A stretch of 64,000 nt of DNA, from the NCBI RefSeq assembly GCF_029240175.1, contig NZ_JARBTM010000003.1, forward strand, positions 124,001-188,000, written 5' to 3'. The translations under genes and the position numbers were made by a program. This DNA is from Anaerosolibacter sp. (GTDB taxonomy: Bacteria; Bacillota; Clostridia; Peptostreptococcales; Thermotaleaceae). Positions 13,949-31,937 of the stretch are shown here, piece after piece (the stretch's first letter is position 1; each line of letters starts with the position of its first letter). Under the pieces are notes generated by a model. That model was not told the origin of the DNA, ran no database searches, and was given only the letters and a program-made list of their open reading frames with translations.

Positions 13949-15115
13949 ATGAAAGGGTTCAGAAACAAAGCATCGATGTACATGATTATTATTGCACTTG
14001 TAACCTTCTATGCTACGCCAAACATGAATACAATAGCTTTCGCAGAAGCAATAGAGGACTTTGAACAAGGGGACGAGACATTAAAGACAGTCATAGAAGA
14101 AGTGTATTTGCTTGAGGATACAGTGCCCGAATCAGGAAATGGCATCATACCTACTGAAATCGAAGGTAATGACCCAGCTATTTCAGGTTATGAAAAGTAC
14201 AAAATTGATCCACCTAGTGATGGAACATATACATCAGGAGATTTTGAAGTAATCGTAGATTTTTATGATGGTGATATCTTCGCAAGTTTTGAATCAAATA
14301 TGGATGTTAAATATGTATTTGTAAAGGGAGGAAACGGAGGATATCTATACGAATATGAGCCAGGTACTACAGCAGATAGTGACCTAAGGGCACCAGGCGT
14401 AGGAAAAAAAGATAACCAACCAGAAATCAGTCATATATCCTTCTATTATGAAATCGTAACAGACCCAGACCCTGATCCAGACCCAGACCCAGACCCAGAC
14501 CCAGATCCAGACCCAGACCCAGACCCTGATCCAGACCCTGATCCAGACCCAGACCCAGATCCAGACCCAGATCCAGACCCAGACCCAGACCCAGATCCAG
14601 ATCCAGACCCAGATCCAGACCCAGATCCAGACCCAGACCCAGACCCAGACCCAGATCCAGATCCAGACCCAGATCCAGATCCCGATCCAGACCCAGATCC
14701 AGACCCTGACCCAGATCCAGACCCAGATCCAGATCCAGACCCAGATCCAGACCCTGACCCAGATCCAGACCCAGATCCAGATCCAGACCCAGATCCAGAT
14801 CCAGATCCAGACCCAGACCCAGATCCAATTGATCCACCCGATGATGATGACGATGATGACGATATAGTAGATATTATCGATGAAGAAATTCCATTGGCTC
14901 CAGTGGATATAGATACCATAGAAACAAATCAGATTCCTGAAGCTACAACAGAGGTCATCGAAGAAACACCTATCGATATTGTCGATGAAGAAATACCATT
15001 AGGTATTGCTTCACTACCTAAAACAGGAGAACTACCCCCAGAATTATTCTATGGATTAGGCGGATTGATTACCTTAACAGGAGTTATAAGTAGAAAGAAA
15101 ACAAAAAATAAGTAG
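13949..15115 (+). CDS. LPKTG wall-anchored protein with 61 Asp-Pro repeats
   Basis: A 388-residue surface protein. A signal peptide (MKGFRNKASMY, hydrophobic core, cut near AFA-EA) is followed by a 140-residue region of unknown fold containing GTYTSGDFEVIVDFYDG, then 61 consecutive Asp-Pro dipeptides (14462-14827), an eight-Asp stretch, and a DEEIPLAP...DEEIPLG pair. It ends with LPKTG (356-360), a hydrophobic helix and a basic tail, a sortase signal. The Asp-Pro region is probably a rigid, negatively charged stalk, perhaps Ca2+-binding (inference). The ATG follows GAAAGAGGTGAG; in-frame starts inside the riboswitch are rejected. A sortase lies 1.4 kb downstream. Confidence 0.9.
   Translation: MKGFRNKASMYMIIIALVTFYATPNMNTIAFAEAIEDFEQGDETLKTVIEEVYLLEDTVPESGNGIIPTEIEGNDPAISGYEKYKIDPPSDGTYTSGDFEVIVDFYDGDIFASFESNMDVKYVFVKGGNGGYLYEYEPGTTADSDLRAPGVGKKDNQPEISHISFYYEIVTDPDPDPDPDPDPDPDPDPDPDPDPDPDPDPDPDPDPDPDPDPDPDPDPDPDPDPDPDPDPDPDPDPDPDPDPDPDPDPDPDPDPDPDPDPDPDPDPDPDPDPDPDPDPDPDPDPDPDPDPDPIDPPDDDDDDDDIVDIIDEEIPLAPVDIDTIETNQIPEATTEVIEETPIDIVDEEIPLGIASLPKTGELPPELFYGLGGLITLTGVISRKKTKNK
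14462..14827 (+). repeat. Coding microsatellite, 61 x Asp-Pro (6-nt unit)
   Basis: 366 nt of GAY-CCN codons. Synonymous third-base differences (gac/gat; cca/cct/ccc) are spread through it, so it is not a perfect repeat, but stretches are uniform enough for slippage. On the other strand it reads as spurious Gly-Ser and Leu-Asp/Gly open frames. Confidence 0.95.
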
Positions 15116-15439: not shown

Positions 15440-16459
15440 ATGAAGAGGTTTGTAAGAAGTTCATGTCGATATCTTTGTGTTGGTTTGATGGCAACAGCGA
15501 TTGCTGTGCCAAGCACAACGATTTTATCCTCAGCTGAGGTTGGACAAACCTATCTGATAGATGGGGAAAGTATTGGGAATTATAGCCTGTTGTATTATGC
15601 ATTGGGACAAGGAAATGATAAGGACAAAGCAACAAAAGAGAATAAGTCAAATGCAAATGAGAATGCACCTGGACAGAATGGTGAAGCACTTCCACCGGGG
15701 CACATAGGAAATACGCCTCCAGGACATGTTGATAAAGACAACCATGGACATAATAACCAAGACACTCGGCATGGGGATGATTTAGCACCAGGTCATAGAG
15801 TGGGTGATCAAACCGATGGAGGAGGCGACCAACCTGGCGGAGGAAACGAGCAACCTGGCGGAGGAGGCGAGCAACCTGGCGGAGGAAACGAGCAACCTGG
15901 CGGAGGAAACGAGCAACCTGGCGGAGGAAACGAGCAACCTGGCGGAGGAAATGAGCAACCCGGCGGAGGAAACGAGCAACCTGGCGGAGGAAATGAGCAA
16001 CCTGGTGGAGGAAATGAGCAACCCGGCGGAGGAAACGAGCAACCTGGCGGAGGAAATGAGCAACCCGGCGGAGGAAATGAGCAACCTGGCGGAGGAAATG
16101 AGCAACCTGGCGGAGGAAACGAGCAACCCGGCGGAGGAAATGAGCAACCTGGCGGAGGAAATGAGCAACCTGGCGGAGGAAATGAGCAGCCTGGCGGAGG
16201 AAATGAGCAACCTAGCGGAGGCGATATAGGAACCAACCTGGAAGTTATCATGGATGAAGCAATTCCGCAGGGCCCAGTAAATCTCATACCAGTAGAAAAT
16301 CCACCAGCACAAGGAGAAATGACTACCTTGTTAGATGAAGAAATACCTCTGGGTATTGCAGCCCTTCCGAAGACCGGAGAGCTACCACCAGAAATGTTCT
16401 ACGGACTGGGAAGTATCCTGACAACAGTTGGTGTTATGATTGGAAGAAAAAAGAAATAA
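15440..16459 (+). CDS. LPKTG wall-anchored protein with GGGNEQP repeats
   Basis: A 339-residue surface protein. A signal peptide (hydrophobic to about residue 30) is followed by a His/Asn/Gly-rich region with PPGHIGNTPPGHV, then 18 seven-residue units GGGNEQP (15835-16213; one is GGGGEQP), a DEAIPQGPV and a DEEIPLG motif, LPKTG (309-313), a hydrophobic helix and RKKK. The Gly-rich repeat should be flexible, and every unit carries a Gln. AGAGGGGAAAGA precedes the ATG. It has its own riboswitch and is followed by a terminator and the sortase gene. Function is unknown; a surface adhesin or matrix component is likely. Confidence 0.9.
   Translation: MKRFVRSSCRYLCVGLMATAIAVPSTTILSSAEVGQTYLIDGESIGNYSLLYYALGQGNDKDKATKENKSNANENAPGQNGEALPPGHIGNTPPGHVDKDNHGHNNQDTRHGDDLAPGHRVGDQTDGGGDQPGGGNEQPGGGGEQPGGGNEQPGGGNEQPGGGNEQPGGGNEQPGGGNEQPGGGNEQPGGGNEQPGGGNEQPGGGNEQPGGGNEQPGGGNEQPGGGNEQPGGGNEQPGGGNEQPGGGNEQPGGGNEQPSGGDIGTNLEVIMDEAIPQGPVNLIPVENPPAQGEMTTLLDEEIPLGIAALPKTGELPPEMFYGLGSILTTVGVMIGRKKK
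15835..16213 (+). repeat. Coding tandem repeat, 18 x 21 nt (GGGNEQP)
   Basis: Units follow GGCGGAGGAAAYGAGCAACC-T with few third-base changes (AAC/AAT, CCT/CCC, GGC/GGT). The high DNA identity suggests recent expansion and variable copy number. Confidence 0.95.
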
Positions 16460-21678: not shown

Positions 21679-21790
21679 CGGCTACTCGCTACTCGCCACT
21701 CGCTTTTCGCATAAGACGTCTAGGGTAATTCTTAAAAGTTTTTCAAAAGCTTTTAACCGAGTAGCCAGTAGCGAGCAGCGAGTAGCGAAT
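21679..21790. repeat. Heptamer array, family A, inverted pair
   Basis: The left arm at 21679-21710 (GGCTACTCGCTACTCGCC) and right arm at 21758-21790 (GAGTAGCCAGTAGCGAGCAG) are inverted around about 47 bp. It ends only 9 bp before the sigma-E -35 box of spoIID. Confidence 0.82.
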
Positions 21791-22863: not shown

Positions 22864-22870
22864 AGCGTTG

Positions 22871-23003
22871 GGCTACTCGCTGCTCGCCCTTCGCTTCTCG
22901 CTTAAAGGCCTTAAAATCCATAAAGAAACACAATAGATGGTTTTAGCGAGTAGCCAGTAGCGAGAGGCGAGTGGACAAAATGTGAGTAGCGAGTAGCCAA
23001 AAT
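22871..23003. repeat. Heptamer array, family A, inverted pair plus extra units
   Basis: The left arm at 22871-22902, right arm at 22944-22973, and a further GAGTAGCGAGTAGCC block at 22982-22998. It fills most of the 255-bp spoIID-spoIIQ gap, after which the sigma-F boxes begin. Confidence 0.8.
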
Positions 23004-23070
23004 GTGAGCAGCCAATACCCGTCACCCACTACCCAATACCTTCCACCTTAAAATTTTCCCATCCGCCCAT

Positions 23071-25851: not shown

Positions 25852-26122
25852 TGTTAGTCGTTAGTGGTTAGTAGTTAGTAGTATAAAGGAAATTATGCAA
25901 ATGTTGCTGTAGGGAACGACGCCTCGTCGTTCAGATATTTTAATATCTATAAAAAATATTTTTAGGGGAGACTTTCGTCTCCCTTATTATTATATGTAGG
26001 GGCGAACAATGTTCGCCAGCAGACCCAAGACCCTTCCCAGCACTTGTAGGGGCGATTCACGAATCGCCCGGTGACCCAGGACTCGGCGGTGAACATGTAG
26101 GGAACGACGCCTCTGTCGTTCC
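25852..26122. repeat. Cluster of one family C array and four GTAG-hairpin elements
   Basis: 25852-25884 has GTTAGTCGTTAGTGGTTAG-type 7-nt units. GTAG-hairpin elements lie near 25909, 25996, 26046 and 26096, each TGTAGGG followed by a different palindrome (arms GAACGACG, GGCGAAC, GGCGATTC and GAACGACG). They fill most of the 443-bp mbl-flgG gap. Confidence 0.78.
25965..25992 (+). terminator. Terminator after mbl
   Basis: GGGAGAC/GTCTCCC stem with a TTTC loop and a TTATTATTAT tail. Confidence 0.65.
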
Positions 26123-27364: not shown

Positions 27365-27826
27365 GTGGTTAGCAGTTAGCCGTTAGCGGTTAGCAGCTTA
27401 AAACCAAAAGGTGGTTGATAGATATGAGTAAATTTAAAGAATTAGGTGTATGGGAAAAATCACATAACCTTACTCTACATATTTATAAACTCACTATGCG
27501 TTTCCCATCCGAAGAAAAATATGGATTAACTAGTCAGATTCGAAAAGCCGCATCCTCAATACCTGCAAATATTGCAGAAGGACAAGGCAGATCTAATAAT
27601 AAAGAGTTTATTAACTTTCTTAGAATAGCCAAAGGTTCAGCTACAGAGCTGGAATATTGGTTGCTATTATCACATGAATTACAGTATCTAGATATAAATG
27701 AGTACACAGATTTGTTGAAACAGAATCACAAGATATTAGCTATGCTTAATAACTTGATAACTTCACTAAGCAATTTCCCTAAGAAATAAATATCTTTTAG
27801 CTAACTGCTAACCGCTAACGGCTAAC
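27365..27826. mobile_element. Four-helix-bundle cassette flanked by inverted heptamer arrays (family C)
   Basis: The left arm has GTTAGC-N units; positions 27375-27395 are the exact reverse complement of 27806-27826 (21 bp). A single gene (27424-27789) fills the space between. Outside the arms lie two flagellar rod genes that are normally adjacent. The same arm sequence occurs without a gene at 2745-2836. It is reminiscent of 23S rRNA intervening sequences, which also carry this protein between inverted ends; calling it mobile is inference. Confidence 0.6.
27424..27789 (+). CDS. Four-helix bundle protein (23S rRNA intervening-sequence protein family)
   Basis: A 121-residue all-helical protein of the S23/IVP family (also the fold of the DGR accessory protein Avd). 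Its biochemical role is unknown. Family marks: LGVWEKSHNLTLHIYKLT at the start, FPSEEKYGLTSQIRKAASS (about residues 27-45), and PANIAEGQGR. The ATG follows AAAGGTGG. It is inserted between two rod-protein genes, in the same direction, and lies between perfectly matching inverted heptamer arms. It resembles the second copy at 28753 over its whole length, but the two are clearly diverged. Confidence 0.9.
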   Translation: MSKFKELGVWEKSHNLTLHIYKLTMRFPSEEKYGLTSQIRKAASSIPANIAEGQGRSNNKEFINFLRIAKGSATELEYWLLLSHELQYLDINEYTDLLKQNHKILAMLNNLITSLSNFPKK

Positions 27827-29559: not shown

Positions 29560-29626
29560 AGCGAATGGCGAGCAGCGAGAAGCGAGTAGCCAATAAGACG
29601 GGCCAGTAGCGAGAAGCGAGCAGCGC
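29560..29626. repeat. Heptamer array, family A, direct blocks
   Basis: GCGAATGGCGAGCAGCGAG, then GCGAGTAGCC, and after a short break CAGTAGCGAGAAGCGAGCAG. Both blocks are in the same sense, unlike the inverted pairs elsewhere. The rest of the 428-bp flgJ-fabZ gap is AT-rich and shows no gene. Confidence 0.75.
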
Positions 29627-30548: not shown

Positions 30549-30575
30549 TGTAGGGGACAGACATGCCTGTTCCGC
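30549..30575. repeat. GTAG-hairpin element
   Basis: TGTAGGGGACAGACATGCCTG then TTCC, a variant of the AACAGGCATGCCTGTT palindrome. Confidence 0.7.
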
Positions 30576-31911: not shown

Positions 31912-31937
31912 TGTAGGGAACAGGCATGCCTGTTCCC
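31912..31937. repeat. GTAG-hairpin element between wzz and ligase genes
   Basis: TGTAGGGAACAGGCATGCC then TGTTCCCC. It occupies most of the short gap between two genes that otherwise look co-transcribed. Confidence 0.72.

Follow-up and report, generated by a model that had tools for sequence, protein, structure and literature searches.

Inverted Heptamer Arrays Flank Genes for the 23S rRNA Intervening-Sequence Protein and Suggest a Small Mobile Element

Introduction

Both the intervening-sequence protein (IVP) of 23S rRNA, a small four-helix bundle met with mainly in rRNA inserts, and the insertions in rRNA are already known. For the intervening sequence (IVS) of Coxiella, one study describes tandem heptamers (GACAGAT) ahead of the S23 open reading frame (ORF) together with an inverted stem of 28 bp, and it notes that mobility of the IVS had already been proposed (PMC4990558). 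A 23S rRNA IVS with an S23/IVP ORF, a kind of insert that RNase III cuts out of the RNA, shares its protein family and its inverted termini with the locus reported here, which lies in the window (the whole stretch of 64,000 nt of Anaerosolibacter sp. DNA that was analyzed). The cassette of the window differs from it in being placed between protein-coding genes and in having heptamers that vary freely; here, moreover, dispersed derivatives without the gene exist, and insertion polymorphism can be seen directly.

Repeats of period 7, mostly intergenic like those of the window, have also been described as heptameric SSR/STRR in Nostoc, Calothrix, Xanthomonas, Beggiatoaceae, and Geobacter. One study reports 70 and 75 close convergent pairs for the GGGAATC repeats of Xanthomonas, and heptamer repeats generally without an association with mobile elements (PMC4692102). 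They differ from the elements described below in that the accessible parts of their literature mention no tie to an IVP gene. REPIN/RAYT systems combine dispersed, nonautonomous hairpins with one family of helper genes, and the IVP system would likewise join dispersed hairpins to a single helper family; unlike REPIN/RAYT, however, the cassettes of the window have no HUH tyrosine transposase, and what defines the ends of IVP elements is no fixed sequence but a period with an AG core.

Results

IVP Cassettes in the Window

The gene in the first cassette belongs to PF05635/TIGR02436, the 23S rRNA intervening-sequence protein, and is enclosed by GTTAGC-N arrays (table 1). The original prediction had placed it between perfect inverted arms of 21 bp: the bracketing stands, whereas the length has to be corrected, as the arms form a perfect inverted repeat of 22 nt with a spacing of 408 nt. 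By simple arithmetic, about 1e-6 perfect inverted pairs of this length within ~450 nt are expected by chance per 64 kb. The cassette does split two rod-protein genes, as had been claimed, with a flgF-like gene and flgG on either side, and its site is this junction and not the inside of a 23S rRNA gene. A second IVP gene, overlooked in the original prediction, lies one gene downstream and has inverted heptamer arms of its own; both genes score well past the PF05635 cut-off of 33.8 bits. The third IVP gene (IVP-3, locus L003) has inverted hexamer arms of the AAGGTT type, and thus all three IVP genes found in this genome (assembly 96.5% complete) are bracketed, each by a different array sequence.

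In the sister species (G001), the flgF–flgG junction also holds an IVP gene, with GTTAGT-N arms, and a second IVP gene elsewhere has AGTTGAA arms. The IVP proteins at this junction are 60% identical between the two species, compared with 92% for FlgG, which may indicate either fast evolution or independent insertions at one site.

Table 1. Cassettes, gene-less elements, solo arrays, and host genes in the window (positions in the window)
Feature	Start	End	Strand	Remarks
Gene-less element, inverted CTACTCG-type arms	715	900		Missing from G001 (3-nt gap)
Gene-less element, GTTAGC-N arms	2747	2833		Arms 2747–2766 / 2814–2833
Solo hexamer array	4259	4284		26 nt identical to left arm of IVP-3 cassette, ~47 kb off on the same contig
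Gene-less element, inverted GCTACTC-type arms	21681	21788		
Solo GTTAGT-N array	23959	23994		
Solo GTTAGT-N array	25853	25882		
flgF-like rod-protein gene of the host, preceding cassette 1	26289	27362	+	
Left heptamer array of cassette 1, GTTAGC-N	27368	27396		Inner perfect arm 27375–27396; array units 27368–27394
IVP four-helix-bundle gene 1	27424	27789	+	PF05635, 141.7 bits
Right heptamer array of cassette 1, GTTAGC-N	27800	27826		Perfect arm 27805–27826
Host gene flgG between cassettes 1 and 2	27901	28692	+	
Left heptamer array of cassette 2, AGTTACT type	28697	28720		Arms 83% complementary
IVP four-helix-bundle gene 2	28750	29115	+	PF05635, 142 bits
Right heptamer array of cassette 2, ACTAGNN type	29124	29155		
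Gene-less heptamer arrays, GCGAGNA type	29568	29626		

Gene-less Elements and Other Repeats

Arms of the first cassette had been reported to recur without the gene near 2745–2836, and the same heptamer was indeed confirmed there (table 1); at the corresponding site of the sister species, GTTAGT-N arms enclose a different loop. The element at 715–900, which the sister species lacks, sits directly after a stop codon. With 21681–21788, 22868–23012, and 29568–29626 it makes up a CTACTCG/GCGAGTA heptamer family that is C-rich when read inward, opposite to most IVP arms. CTACTCG-type arms occur on none of the three IVP genes found in the window's genome (G000). The pattern GCTACTNGCTACTNGC has 26 matches in G000, two each in G001 and G015, and one in G008, which has no IVP, with at most two in any genome of the family but G000.

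Judging each array by its first match, 39 of 44 arrays in G000 are GTTAGC, four are GTTAGT, and one is mixed, compared with nine GTTAGT, one GTTAGC, and one mixed among the 11 of G001. This shift from GTTAGC to GTTAGT is visible at two orthologous sites. Near-identical GTTAGC-N arrays stand at the extreme ends of four contigs of G000 (bases 22–48 of C8, C22, and C34; bases 4–22 of C27), as if these arrays, or a longer repeat containing them, had broken the assembly. Long perfect heptamer arrays of ~10–13 units, exceeding the cassette arms, were seen at G000:C18:33091-33183, G001:C14:81956-82044, and G001:C8:62160-62234.

Repeats of other kinds are present in the window as well. Inverted GGGGACAGACATGCCTGTTCC-type repeats at 30553–30573 and 31917–31937 are REP-like, as is a palindrome (AACGACG...CGTCGTT) near 25905–25945 that is also present in G001, and long tandem repeats at 14460–14827 and 15830–16221 consist of a CAGACC-rich unit of 30 bp and a unit of 21 bp.

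Inverted Arms at IVP Loci of Many Phyla

Arms were sought as the best inverted local alignment between the 150 nt on either side of an IVP gene, with a threshold score of at least 24, and upstream and downstream flanks of mismatched loci served as the control. Inverted arms were found at 18 of 34 Bacillota loci (mismatched pairs, 30/1122); at 51 of the 78 loci of named genomes, which span many phyla (182/6006) and come from the best 80 of 584 confirmed stretches, so that they are the ones nearest to the protein of the window; and at 22 of 29 loci on viral contigs (38/812). Loci left out before this count were 4 of 38 in Bacillota (short contigs) and 2 of 80 named and 6 of 35 viral loci (short flanks or identical proteins). 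The mismatched background is thus 3–5%, and the three sets surpass it ~16- to 22-fold; homologous IVP genes usually do have inverted flanks, on which the original prediction depended. Ordinary ORFs at the same 80 named loci reach a score of at least 24 in 10 of 415 cases (length-matched ORFs, 6/273). By the same threshold a quarter to half of the IVP loci have no arms (7/29 viral, 27/78 named, 16/34 Bacillota). In an earlier version of the test, 26 of 38 Bacillota loci exceeded the 95th percentile of a control that was inflated by overlapping and rRNA loci.

Period 7 (counting a best shift of 14 as 7) characterizes 58 of the 75 arms scoring at least 28, namely 13 of 16 in Bacillota, 26 of 39 in named genomes, and 19 of 20 on viral contigs; the remaining strong arms have period 6, 8, 9, 11, or none. 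The IVP genes of L025 and L027 (genomes G030 and G110) have inverted arms of period 11. A search of 50,697 phage records for IVP gave one weak match.

The original prediction had regarded a version at protein-coding loci as distinct from the IVS of 23S rRNA. This distinction does not hold, as IVP elements inside 23S rRNA have inverted heptamer arms of the same kind: among three IVP loci placed inside bacterial 23S rRNA by an Rfam LSU check, two (L055 and L059) have inverted heptamer arms with scores of 34 and 35, and the third, with a broken gene, has an arm score of 21.

Shared Features and Placement of the Arms

Heptamers vary from locus to locus. Read inward, they lean to G in 44 of 55 loci and the other way in 8 (59 to 45 in the upstream control), and the 39 of 55 arms with a clear period have a common inward core, N-A-G-Y-K-R-W, of 3.63 bits (maximum of 60 column-permuted sets, 2.86), AG recurring in 31 of the 39. 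The 5′ arm has a median length of 31 nt, or ~4.4 heptamers. No protein-to-heptamer code could be recovered (Mantel r 0.04, p 0.24, 55 loci), and some of the closest pairs of IVP proteins have common heptamers, others not.

The two arms of a locus agree with each other better (mean 87.6%) than neighboring units do (65.8%), and do so in 51 of 54 loci, a comparison biased by the fact that the arms had been detected by their mutual agreement. An RNA hairpin was considered as the reason: a coding-strand transcript that has to fold should give an excess of G-U-compatible mismatches, but these number 50 against 74 others (p 0.04 in the opposite direction), and none of the Rfam families matched the window between 26000 and 30000. 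The RNA-hairpin reading was therefore rejected, and to judge from the mismatches the arms look as if they agree through copying of DNA and not through folding of RNA.

As a rule, a cassette lies directly behind the stop codon of a gene on its own strand. The upstream gene is co-oriented at 26 of 31 armed named-genome loci with clear neighbors, and at 18 of these 26 the arm lies at most 13 nt from its stop codon (both counts from the best 80 of 584). On the other side, the arm closely precedes the IVP start, at a median of 34 nt.

The IVP Protein

The AlphaFold model (29 sequences) has a mean pLDDT of 95.5. The closest solved structures are 2gsc, the product of xcc0516 of Xanthomonas campestris (Z 21.1, 0.9 Å over 115), and 2rld (Z 18.1), each of five chains, and the protein of 2gsc is described as a homopentamer (PMC4990558). 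Next comes Avd of the diversity-generating retroelements (DGRs), both within a DGR ribonucleoprotein (8ub7) and on its own (4dwl), with Z of 15.2 and 15.1, unrelated helical rows reaching at most 12.7; the likeness of IVP to Avd has already been published (PMC10053308). It is one of fold, the sequence match of the window's IVP to Avd being weak (31.5 bits, cut-off 80). In contrast to a DGR, the window's contig (C5) has no match to a reverse transcriptase (RT), the RT matches of this genome being on C14 and C25. We know of no nuclease activity of IVP. For one close pair of IVP genes, dN is 0.022 and dS 0.791, indicating that the protein is kept by selection in that pair.

Codistribution of Arrays and IVP Genes

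The sample of the window's family comprises 16 genomes, five with IVP (G000, G001, G011, G015, and G004) and 11 without. Overlapping matches to GTTAGYNGTTAGYNGTTAG (GTTAGY) number 68 in G000, 42 in G001, 10 in G011, 8 in G015, and 0 in G004, compared with a single match in total in the 11 genomes without IVP, and the reversed pattern has no matches; as the heptamer had been picked from G000, relatedness contributes to this contrast. Opposite outcomes were seen within one genus, with 10 GTTAGY matches in G011 (IVP present) and 0 in G010 (IVP absent). A scan blind to the heptamer, run on sampled stretches, found 37 period-7 arrays, 16 of them inverted, in the five IVP genomes (343 kb), a count in which 6 belong to IVP cassettes as their arms and the window itself had been chosen for its arrays, compared with four (none inverted) in 460 kb of nine of the 11 genomes without IVP, three of these four being A/T-rich low complexity. 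No arrays occurred in what was searched of G004, and periods 5, 6, 8, 9, and 10 gave no comparable excess in the IVP genomes of the family.

Outside the window's family, this link in trans is weak. In family f94, the genome lacking IVP (G219) has six period-7 arrays (none inverted) in 89 kb, compared with 46 (12 inverted) in 320 kb of seven genomes with IVP, a weak contrast, and the phylum sample shows no clear difference between ten genomes with IVP (16 arrays, four inverted, in 400 kb) and three without (four arrays, none inverted, in 120 kb). Two other candidates were examined within the family: Y1_Tnp matches occur in 15 of the 16 genomes, with and without arrays, disqualifying RAYT/Y1 as the driver, and RT matches, present in 11 of the 16, are not diagnostic as a marker.

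Filled and Empty Junctions

Within the family, the flgF–flgG junction is filled in both species of the genus (G000 and G001), holds an array without a gene in G015, and is an array-free gap of 15–28 nt in six relatives (G002, G006, G007, G008, G009, and G012), with longer gaps in the others, G003 aside. The comparison of filled and empty junctions proposed with the original prediction thus gave both states, and its suggestion of a mobile cassette finds its best support at filled and empty sites on Nostoc plasmids. Nine syntenic plasmid regions were compared at one junction: an IVP cassette is present in L112, L196, and L199, a 3-nt gap in L110, L194, L195, L197, and L198, and other sequence in L200; at the next junction, one gene on, L110 alone has a cassette. 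Empty junctions hold no arrays at all, and as arms and gene are missing jointly, their arrival was joint as well.

L112 and L199 have cassettes with 99.1% identity, compared with 92% for their flanking genes. The L196 cassette is in two parts, which match L112 at 99.6% and 96.8% identity; between the three carriers, the flanking genes are 90–95% identical. For each carrier the nearest relative in both flanking genes is an empty plasmid: L110 for L112 (0.939 and 0.997 in the two genes), L198 for L196 (0.937, 0.983), and, by small margins over the next carrier, for L199 either L110 or L197 in the upstream gene (0.927 each) and L197 in the downstream gene (0.934). Near-identical elements occupy one site on diverged backbones, a same-site spread that resembles homing. 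Homologous transfer of these copies is conceivable but would need a recombination tract ending near the edge of the element, L112 and L199 being 87% identical over the last 117 nt before the site.

In L196, the IVP gene is interrupted by a gene-less element of ~181 bp with inverted heptamers and 0–1 nt duplicated, and the 30-nt arm of this element has five further occurrences in the six stretches. Among the other heptamer insertions in Nostoc, some duplicate as many as 8 nt, some duplicate none, and some replace up to 7 nt, and their ends are not uniform (indels without heptamer ends, such as L207 44122 and 44874 and L211r 16125 and 37715, were set aside). A target-site duplication was looked for, as the original prediction had advised, but no constant one emerged among these insertions, and the window element at 715–900 faces a 3-nt gap; in this the IVP/heptamer elements differ from DDE transposons and MITEs. 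No transposase was found inside the IVP cassettes that were read, though a helper might be encoded elsewhere in a genome. In total, 299 kb of Nostoc plasmid stretches hold 45 period-7 arrays, of which 37 are paired with an inverted one. Under the definition of cyanobacterial STRR (tandem heptamers between genes in heterocystous cyanobacteria), the Nostoc elements qualify, and those of the window do not.

Discussion

An IVP gene with its two arms is probably a small mobile element, for which IVP would be the helper in cis and, for gene-less elements, in trans. Mobility of the cassettes is well supported; that IVP drives the movement, in what manner, and that it binds the heptamers, we infer. 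The element would measure ~0.4–0.5 kb and carry no known recombinase. The IVP ring, five-membered in relatives, would grip about one AG-heptamer per subunit on single-stranded DNA, an arm offering ~4–5 units, and would fold the element into a hairpin. This hairpin would be delivered to a gene junction that is being transcribed; the element would be copied in there by replication or repair or, with lower probability, by an RT in trans. One arm would be copied from the other, which would account for matching arms even though each element has its own heptamer, and the IVSs of 23S rRNA would be the same element in one niche. TRAP, the trp RNA-binding attenuation protein, is a ring that reads regularly spaced NAG triplets; the likeness concerns the proposed binding mode only, with different fold and spacing and no homology claimed. 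No transposon class known to us combines an Avd-like protein, the lack of a known recombinase, arms set by their period and an AG core, and the lack of a constant duplication.

Movement could instead proceed via cDNA, with IVP acting like Avd together with a host RT and insertion by retrohoming. The Avd fold, the same-strand insertion at 26 of 31 loci, and the RT matches in all four family genomes that have both IVP and GTTAGY arrays, G004 having IVP but neither an RT match nor arrays, would all suit such a route. However, RT matches also occur in 7 of the 11 family genomes without IVP, no RT stands beside the cassettes of the window, and the arm mismatches do not favor RNA pairing; we consider this route unlikely, yet it stays in contention.

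The placement of the arms, abutting stop codons (within 13 nt at 18 of 26 same-strand upstream genes) and preceding the IVP start by a median of 34 nt, together with the conserved AG core, would also be expected if IVP were a sequence-specific regulator with heptamer arrays, as RNA or DNA, for its operators, the arms controlling their own gene and the arrays having spread by other causes. This reading is distinctly improbable, as it leaves unexplained the inverted partner, the joint arrival of arms and gene, and the same-site spread on diverged plasmids.

Heptamer palindromes might also be made by the host, through replication slippage and template switching between arms, with IVP genes as passengers that landed inside them. 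Long perfect arrays do exist, and in 51 of 54 loci an arm is closer to its partner than its units are to one another, a result favored by the way the arms were selected; yet the empty Nostoc junctions are free of arrays, bracketing of ordinary ORFs is rare (10 of 415), and within the window's family arrays track the presence of IVP. The joint arrival of arms and gene leaves little to recommend this explanation. Chance or local composition, in favor of which only the loci without arms count, is already refuted by the excess of all three locus sets over their controls, and we give it next to no credence.

Returning to the mobile element, we tentatively extend it to a recombinase-free class present across many phyla, whose ends would consist of a 7-nt period and an AG core instead of a fixed sequence, read one heptamer per subunit by a ring-shaped Avd-like protein; this class may be a main source of prokaryotic intergenic heptamer repeats, with the 23S rRNA IVS as one niche, although we hold this wider proposal with some reserve. 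In the open-licence literature we found no publication that connects IVP genes with inverted heptamer arms, with derivatives lacking the gene, and with the heptamer repeats of genomes. The element would provide a first testable explanation for the heptamer repeats scattered through bacterial genomes, with a single protein of 121 amino acids as the helper in question, and if IVP reads period-7 arrays, this would be a new way of defining the ends of a mobile element.
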